Shown here one piece after another: positions 15,084-52,020 of a stretch of DNA of 64,000 bases. Source of the stretch: an uncultured Fodinibius sp. (GTDB taxonomy: Bacteria > Bacteroidota > Rhodothermia > Balneolales > Balneolaceae); the NCBI GenBank assembly GCA_913057775.1, contig CAJXOG010000001.1, positions 604,031-668,030 of the forward strand. Direction: 5' to 3'. The stretch's first letter is position 1. Each line of letters opens with the position of its first letter. The notes below the pieces were generated by a model. The model was not told the DNA's origin and searched no databases. It saw only the letters and a list, made by a program, of their open reading frames with translations. The position numbers and the translations under genes are program-made.

Positions 15084-15541
15084 GTAGAAAGTTAAAGAGT
15101 CTATTGCGTCAAACTCTGCCTTAAAGCATAAATCATTTTTTGGATTTCAATAAGTCTCTTTCTGAATTCATTATATTTTTCTTCATCCAAAAACTCTAAG
15201 TTTTTTGAAATTTTAAGCTGTGTTTCCAATTCGTAACAAGAACCAGTTGAAATATTTAGAAAATGCTTGAATTCCTTTTTAGATTCTCGACCCGCACCTT
15301 CAGCAATGTTTGAACTAATAGAAACGGCACTTCGTCTTATCTGGCTTGTTAAACCATATTGCTCTGTTTTAGGAAAATTTTCTGTTTTATCATAAATATT
15401 AGTTGCCAATTCAACAGCTTTATCCCATACATCTAAATCCCGAAAATTATTCATAGTAACAGTCTTTTTTAAAATTATTACCTATAAGTAAGACTGCTCT
15501 ATATGAACTAACTTACAAACTTTATACTTTCGACTTTCTAC
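15084..15541. repeat. Imperfect inverted repeat pair bracketing the four-helix-bundle gene FHB-1 (arms 15084-15100 and 15526-15541)
   Basis: + strand left arm GTAGAAAGTTAAAGAGT; right arm ACTTTCGACTTTCTAC = reverse complement GTAGAAAGTCGAAAGT; 9 identical leading bases. Confidence 0.65.
15101..15454 (-). CDS. Four-helix-bundle protein (S23/IVP/Avd-like), FHB-1
   Basis: FRDLDVWDKAVELATNIYDKTENFPKTEQYGLTSQIRRSAVSISSNIAEGAGRESKKEFKHFLNISTGSCYELETQL is the hallmark of the four-helix-bundle/S23 family. Confidence 0.94.
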   Translation of the reverse strand: MNNFRDLDVWDKAVELATNIYDKTENFPKTEQYGLTSQIRRSAVSISSNIAEGAGRESKKEFKHFLNISTGSCYELETQLKISKNLEFLDEEKYNEFRKRLIEIQKMIYALRQSLTQ

Positions 15542-51489: not shown

Positions 51490-51563
51490 GGCCTATATGC
51501 ATAATTTTAAGACTACTTATGTAAGGATTTCCTTTTAAGCAGGTCATACTACTCAGGAATACT

Positions 51564-51979
51564 GAATTCCGAAGTCTGAATTCAGAATAAAATCTACTTG
51601 TTATGAGAAAACCGGCTAAGACCTTCAAAGACTTGATAGTATGGCAAAAAGCACATGAATTTGTTTTAGACGTATATGACTATACAGAAGACTTTCCAAA
51701 ATCAGAGTTGTATGGACTAACTTCTCAGTTTAGACGAGCTGCTATTTCGATTGCAGCAAATATTGCAGAAGGATTTAAGAAACGTGGTAAGAAAGACAAA
51801 GCACGGTTTCTGAATATTTCACAAGGATCACTTGAAGAATGCAGATATTATATCATTCTTTCTCAAGATTTAGGATATGAAAATCAATCAGAATTAGACA
51901 AAAAACTACAGGATGTCAGCAAGCTTATTGATGCTTATTCCAAAGCCATTCTGAATTCTGACTCCTGAATTCGGAATTC
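51564..51979. repeat. Imperfect inverted repeat pair enclosing four-helix-bundle gene FHB-2 (arms 51564-51588 and 51948-51979)
   Basis: Left GAATTCCGAAGTCTGAATTCAGAAT; reverse complement of right GAATTCCGAATTCAGGAGTCAGAATTCAGAAT: 10 identical, 7-nt gap (TTCAGGA), then 14/15. Confidence 0.88.
51603..51968 (+). CDS. Four-helix-bundle protein (S23/IVP/Avd-like), FHB-2
   Basis: TFKDLIVWQKAHEFVLDVYDYTEDFPKSELYGLTSQFRRAAISIAANIAEGFKKRGKKDKARFLNISQGSLEECRYYIILSQDL. Confidence 0.95.
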   Translation: MRKPAKTFKDLIVWQKAHEFVLDVYDYTEDFPKSELYGLTSQFRRAAISIAANIAEGFKKRGKKDKARFLNISQGSLEECRYYIILSQDLGYENQSELDKKLQDVSKLIDAYSKAILNSDS

Positions 51980-52020
51980 TTTATCTGACTCAGAATTTAA
52001 AAACTAATTACATAATACAA

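Follow-up and report, generated by a model that had tools for sequence, protein, structure and literature searches.

Inverted arrays of heptamer words bound S23 genes in many phyla and point to a hairpin element linked to natural transformation

Background

Proteins of the S23 family (PF05635) are encoded in the intervening sequences (IVS) of 23S rRNA in Leptospira and Coxiella, where the open-reading frame (ORF) lies inside a hairpin. S23 proteins form a five-membered ring, and their genes are widespread, although we know of no function for them and, to our knowledge, of no catalytic activity. The IVS of Coxiella folds into a 28-bp stem that is cut by RNase III and carries heptamers before the ORF (PMC4990558). 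The S23 loci that we describe here share with these IVS terminal inverted repeats that can pair into a stem enclosing the ORF, but they occur in several intergenic copies per genome, and the locus that we take as reference sits between paaZ and an enoyl-CoA hydratase (ECH) gene, with no rRNA and with a competence-type promoter of its own.

REPINs and the RAYT proteins thought to serve them offer a second point of comparison. As in REPIN/RAYT systems, the S23 gene is flanked by its own palindromic words and gene-less hairpins of the same words lie elsewhere (PMC3116915), the word family is linked to the protein lineage, and the gene is largely vertically inherited. Unlike the RAYT tyrosine transposases, however, S23 is an unrelated four-helix bundle, its words form heptad arrays, far fewer solo hairpins were found and a competence promoter is present. 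REPIN hairpins usually number more than 100 per genome (PMC2817692), whereas sites of the GAATTC-type words number 0-4 per same-genus genome at the stringency used here. The Avd protein of diversity-generating retroelements is a distant relative of S23. Finally, the regulon outlined below resembles the competence regulons of transformable bacteria in its members comEC, comM, ssb, recA, radC and a comEA-like gene, but its motif also stands before S23 genes bounded by hairpins and before genes for small nucleases.

In the open-licence literature we found no description of free-standing S23 genes with hairpin boundaries, of a link between S23 and competence, or of the shared competence motif reported here, and a paper on the intergenic TAACTGA heptamer makes no mention of S23 (PMC4679880). 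Our results suggest that a hairpin element, so far apparently undescribed, is widespread across many phyla and linked to natural transformation. Because most sampled S23 genes are bounded by lineage-specific heptad hairpins, and about one third of those in the host's family lie under the promoter of comEC, they offer a testable lead to a function in DNA uptake. Intervening sequences of rRNA, and many short heptad palindromes between genes, could have arisen from the same element, and the motif offers a way to recognise competence promoters in a group for which we found no such signature described.

Methods

The window is the whole stretch of DNA analysed, 64,000 nt from the genome of an uncultured Fodinibius sp. 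of the family Balneolaceae (assembly GCA_913057775.1), hereafter the host. The arm score of an S23 gene is that of the best match obtained when its two 250-nt flanks are compared in inverted orientation, and scores of at least 30 were considered strong. Besides the genes of the host's family, a wider set of 74 S23 loci was compiled from named genomes, mostly Bacteroidota but also spanning Verrucomicrobia, Acidobacteria, Proteobacteria, Fibrobacter, Clostridia and candidate phyla. Promoter motifs in the host were located by pattern search of its own genome.

Results and discussion

The S23 gene of the paaZ junction occupies positions 51603-51968 of the forward strand and encodes a 121-aa protein. 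The original prediction, made from the letters of the window, had likened it to S23 proteins and placed it between paaZ and an ECH gene, away from any rRNA. Family membership is confirmed by matches above the curated cut-offs of PF05635 (127.4 bits versus 33.8, E 3.3e-37) and TIGR02436 (120.8 bits versus 24), and the site by the profile matches of the neighbouring host genes, paaZ upstream (TIGR02278; 49402-51489, forward strand) and the ECH gene downstream (PF00378; 52021-52782, forward strand), which lie outside the element. The nearest, and sole, solved relative found by sequence is 2GSC. Matches to the bAvd and Avd profiles stay below cut-off (NF033474, 30.1 bits versus 80; PF22296, 24.6 versus 40), no reverse transcriptase was recognised among the S23 neighbours examined, and a Pfam profile search of the protein returned no transposase match.

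The four-helix-bundle ORF does lie between long inverted arms, as foreseen. The left arm (51557-51588, forward strand), made up of GAATTC/AGNNNTC-type heptad words, and the right arm (51948-51979, forward strand) are 32 nt long, 359 nt apart and 84% complementary, and the right arm overlaps the last codons of the gene and supplies its TGA stop (51966-51968), again as read originally. The local inverted-complementarity score reaches 39, against a maximum of 27 at 501 other places of the same geometry in the window, and the left arm is the only other match in the window to the right-arm word with up to three mismatches (0 expected).

The host genome contains five PF05635 genes, and at least one S23 gene is found in 47 of 58 genomes of its family, with some 5-16 copies in most of the well-assembled genomes that have any. 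Inverted repeats had been expected to be enriched around homologues, and they are. Among 80 distinct S23 genes of the family the median arm score is 32.5 and 47 (59%) are strong, compared with 6 of 1500 random places (0.4%), none of 53 other ORFs, 1.2% of flanks matched in direct orientation and 3.4% of mismatched partners drawn from different loci. Since S23 loci are partly kin, and thus not independent, the mismatched-partner control and the wider set guard against an effect of kinship; in the latter, 41 of 74 loci (55%) are strong, against 2 of 368 random places (0.5%) and 2.1% of mismatched partners. Strong inverted flanks are therefore a general feature of S23 genes, two of the five host copies having weak arms (scores 21-22).

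Each arm is made up of consecutive words of 7 nt, sometimes 8 nt. In arms scoring at least 29, base identity within the arm is 0.57 at lag 7, 0.55 at lag 14 and 0.37 at lag 8, versus about 0.26 at other lags; left arms of this class contain little C (8%), and most measure 21-35 nt. The words vary from locus to locus yet track the S23 lineage (Mantel r 0.66, p 0.0005), the 5-mer Jaccard index of the arms being 0.37 for proteins more than 70% identical and about 0.03 below 50% identity, which is what recognition of cognate words by the protein would predict. At the paaZ junction, orthologues retain AGAATTC/AGNNNTC-type words across genera with synonymous sites mostly saturated. Among them self-complementarity of the stem scores 43 against 36 for cross-pairing, with self the best in 2 of 11 rows, so that strict stem covariation is not clearly supported.

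Gene-less hairpins of these words also occur at other loci. With one mismatch allowed, a 16-nt piece of the right arm has 14 sites in 12 same-genus genomes, and its reversed control none. One of these sites is the arm of the window's own S23 gene; the other 13, together with one further site in the host genome, lie more than 1.5 kb from any S23 gene, and several of these S23-less sites fold into complete mini-hairpins. Such gene-less hairpins, and the quasi-repetitive and variable nature of the arms, would fit passive intergenic repeats, in which slippage during replication and the correction of hairpins would generate heptad palindromes that simply gather at these genes. We disfavour this reading as improbable, given that arms are specific to S23 ends (random places, 0.4-0.5%) and that their words follow the S23 lineage and persist across genera at saturated dS.

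The history of the paaZ-ECH junction is one of long residence. A closely related S23 gene directly follows paaZ in 10 of 30 relatives examined, the host included, and is absent from others. The gene is present at the same junction in several genera, the identity of the encoded proteins broadly parallels that of PaaZ, and dN/dS among orthologues (0.02-0.09) indicates strong purifying selection, in contrast with the ORF of the Coxiella IVS, which is thought not to be expressed. Judging from these comparisons, it looks like an old functional gene that was vertically inherited and later lost repeatedly. The gene-less alleles are read as losses because several hold remnants: promoter-like and flank remnants in L084, and in L088 and L091 a right-arm remnant beside a DUF559-like gene that is itself bounded by a different inverted repeat. 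Allele L090 has a short palindrome built of the same words, and the gene-less alleles also include several short junctions. We found no clean new insertion of an S23 element with a pristine empty site. The original prediction of a mobile, palindrome-bounded element had looked to this junction for empty palindromes and had named, as the outcome that would speak against it, a gene conserved in place with no empty alleles. Both expectations were answered in part: the gene is indeed old and inherited in place, but gene-less alleles do exist, and one does contain a palindrome of the same words, while those with remnants are losses rather than pre-insertion sites. In six further alleles of this junction (L085, L086, L087, L097, L098 and L105) paaZ and ECH are separated by unrelated gene-less mini-hairpins of CAGCTATCAGC-type and CGCAAAG-type words.

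Many S23 ORFs are preceded, at 60-110 nt, by the motif TGTAAG-N19-CWTAC. At spacing 19 and with at most one mismatch it is found before 27 of 84 S23 genes, versus 5 of 420 shuffles, and only about one third of S23 genes thus have a recognisable copy. At the paaZ junction the motif TGTAAGGATTTCCTTTTAAGCAGGTCATAC (51520-51549, forward strand; consensus TGTAAGG-N15-GKTCWTAC) ends 8 nt before the start of the left arm. The pattern occurs 27 times in the host genome, against once for its reversed control, and the genes downstream include ssb, recA, comEC, comM/YifB, radC and a gene for a comEA-like helix-hairpin-helix protein, as well as four S23, two DUF559, two GIY-YIG, one PD-(D/E)XK (PF13366) and two integrase genes. 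In a genome of another genus (G043) copies of the pattern stand before ssb, recA, radC, S23, GIY-YIG and PF13366 genes. Across the family, 28 of 30 members carry it directly before comEC at a near-fixed distance with at most one mismatch, versus 13 of 600 random stretches. A stricter form is found 123 times in 12 same-genus genomes (2 for controls); 37 genomes drawn from the order's other four families yield a single occurrence. Replacing N15 by N17 leaves a single match in 129 genomes; the exact spacing is required. From the genes that it precedes, we conclude that TGTAAGG-N15-GKTCWTAC is the probable promoter of a competence regulon in the host's family.

Control of the motif by the SOS response was considered and is disfavoured: comEC, comM and the comEA-like gene are among the host-genome sites, and neither lexA nor an error-prone polymerase was recognised at them, some sites being without an identified gene.

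A promoter shared with comEC invites the reading of S23 as a domesticated competence protein, that is, a host factor of transformation that would, for instance, bind incoming single-stranded DNA, with the arms as operator sites for its autoregulation and the solo hairpins as decaying leftovers. Strong purifying selection, long residence at one junction, words kept across genera at saturated dS and a competence promoter beside or within the arms all agree with it. We nonetheless consider it unlikely, since repeated loss of the gene in close relatives, some 5-16 copies in most well-assembled genomes having S23, and hairpins built from these words elsewhere all resemble an element more than a single host gene.

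The position of the promoter also bears on the original proposal that the transcript folds into a hairpin with the ORF as its loop, an RNA-level element on whose stem S23 or RNase III would act as in the 23S IVS. The arms do pair across the ORF in the predicted RNA fold of the window locus, the whole fold being only modestly better than shuffles (z -1.8), and the RNase III-cut stem of the Coxiella IVS provides a precedent (PMC4990558). In 13 of 25 scorable S23 genes (arms of at least 29), the window's and 12 others, the left arm follows the promoter and would lie close to where the mRNA is expected to begin. In the other 12, however, it precedes the promoter. Even at the paaZ junction the orthologues are not uniform, the left arm lying before the promoter in G028 and G037 and after it in the host. 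The transcript of the element would thus often be without its left arm. A left arm on either side of the promoter weakens the RNA-hairpin idea, which we regard as quite unlikely: the transcript hairpin is not constant, in contrast with the pair of word arrays bounding the gene.

Because of this arm placement and of the competence promoter, we favour, tentatively and at somewhat less than even confidence, a DNA-level hairpin element resembling REPIN/RAYT systems, in which the S23 protein, produced during DNA uptake, would recognise the words of its own element. The element would comprise a single S23 gene with an array of heptamer words on each side, the two arrays inverted relative to each other. 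The encoded protein would most likely bind these words, probably as a five-membered ring, acting on the hairpin that forms when the element is single-stranded. Under a promoter common to comEC and the recombination genes of DNA uptake, S23 would be made as single-stranded donor DNA enters. It may then promote the copying of the element, and of gene-less hairpins built from its words, into new or matching sites, or their retention there, a role akin to that envisaged for RAYT proteins. Word binding, the single-stranded DNA step and mobility are what we infer from the sequence features above. Speaking against the element reading are the lack of a clean insertion, a gene that at the paaZ junction looks inherited in place and then lost, an S23 family with no known catalytic activity, a motif in only about a third of the genes, stems without clear covariation and the weak arms of two host copies. 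A broader conjecture, which we hold to be doubtful, is that free-standing S23 genes across bacteria form a distinct class of mobile hairpins spread by natural transformation, in which the arms would fold in incoming single-stranded DNA, a competence-promoted S23 ring would recognise its own words, and rRNA IVSs would be copies that landed in rRNA genes.

A second S23 element of the window, with AAAGT-word arms, lies on the reverse strand between fadB-like and thiolase genes (15101-15454), and its promoter motif, TGTAAGTTAGTTCATATAGAGCAGTCTTAC, at 15488-15517 of the same strand. Its arms are weak (score 21), but two observations back the assignment: related sites that are occupied, and remnants of the right arm in relatives lacking the gene. 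The gene is found in 4 of 12 same-genus genomes, and right-arm remnants persist in three that do not have it; it tells the same story as the gene of the paaZ junction. At the fadB-thiolase junction of G006, G035 and G048 there are gene-less hairpins of GAATTC type.

The motif search also brought up several other transcription units. Five copies in the host genome (L131, L132, L133, L135 and L136) precede a short conserved stretch, typically ACAGATAAGCCGTTGA..., with an intrinsic terminator, an apparent small RNA for which Rfam has no match. At L128, a gene for a sigma-like protein (951-2419, numbered on the reverse complement) lies ahead of ruvB and of a TPR protein gene driven by the motif; the match of the sigma-like protein to PF04542 is weak and below cut-off, and we note it as a candidate regulator of the competence promoter, only as a lead. 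Two tyrosine-recombinase genes resembling integron integrases (L113 and L137) have a competence-type promoter, as do small PD-(D/E)XK (PF13366) and GIY-YIG genes in two genera (L120, L123, L130, L149 and L150), with L123 also showing inverted flanks (score 34). At L134 the motif is followed by a 149-aa ORF with no Pfam match.

In keeping with the favoured element reading, inverted repeats also bound DUF559 nuclease genes of the host's family (12 of 27, versus 0 of 115), the promoter motif being present in only 3 of those 27. The arms of the DUF559 genes (L237-L266) are often palindromic themselves, e.g. CCCTCTCC...GGAGAGGG.
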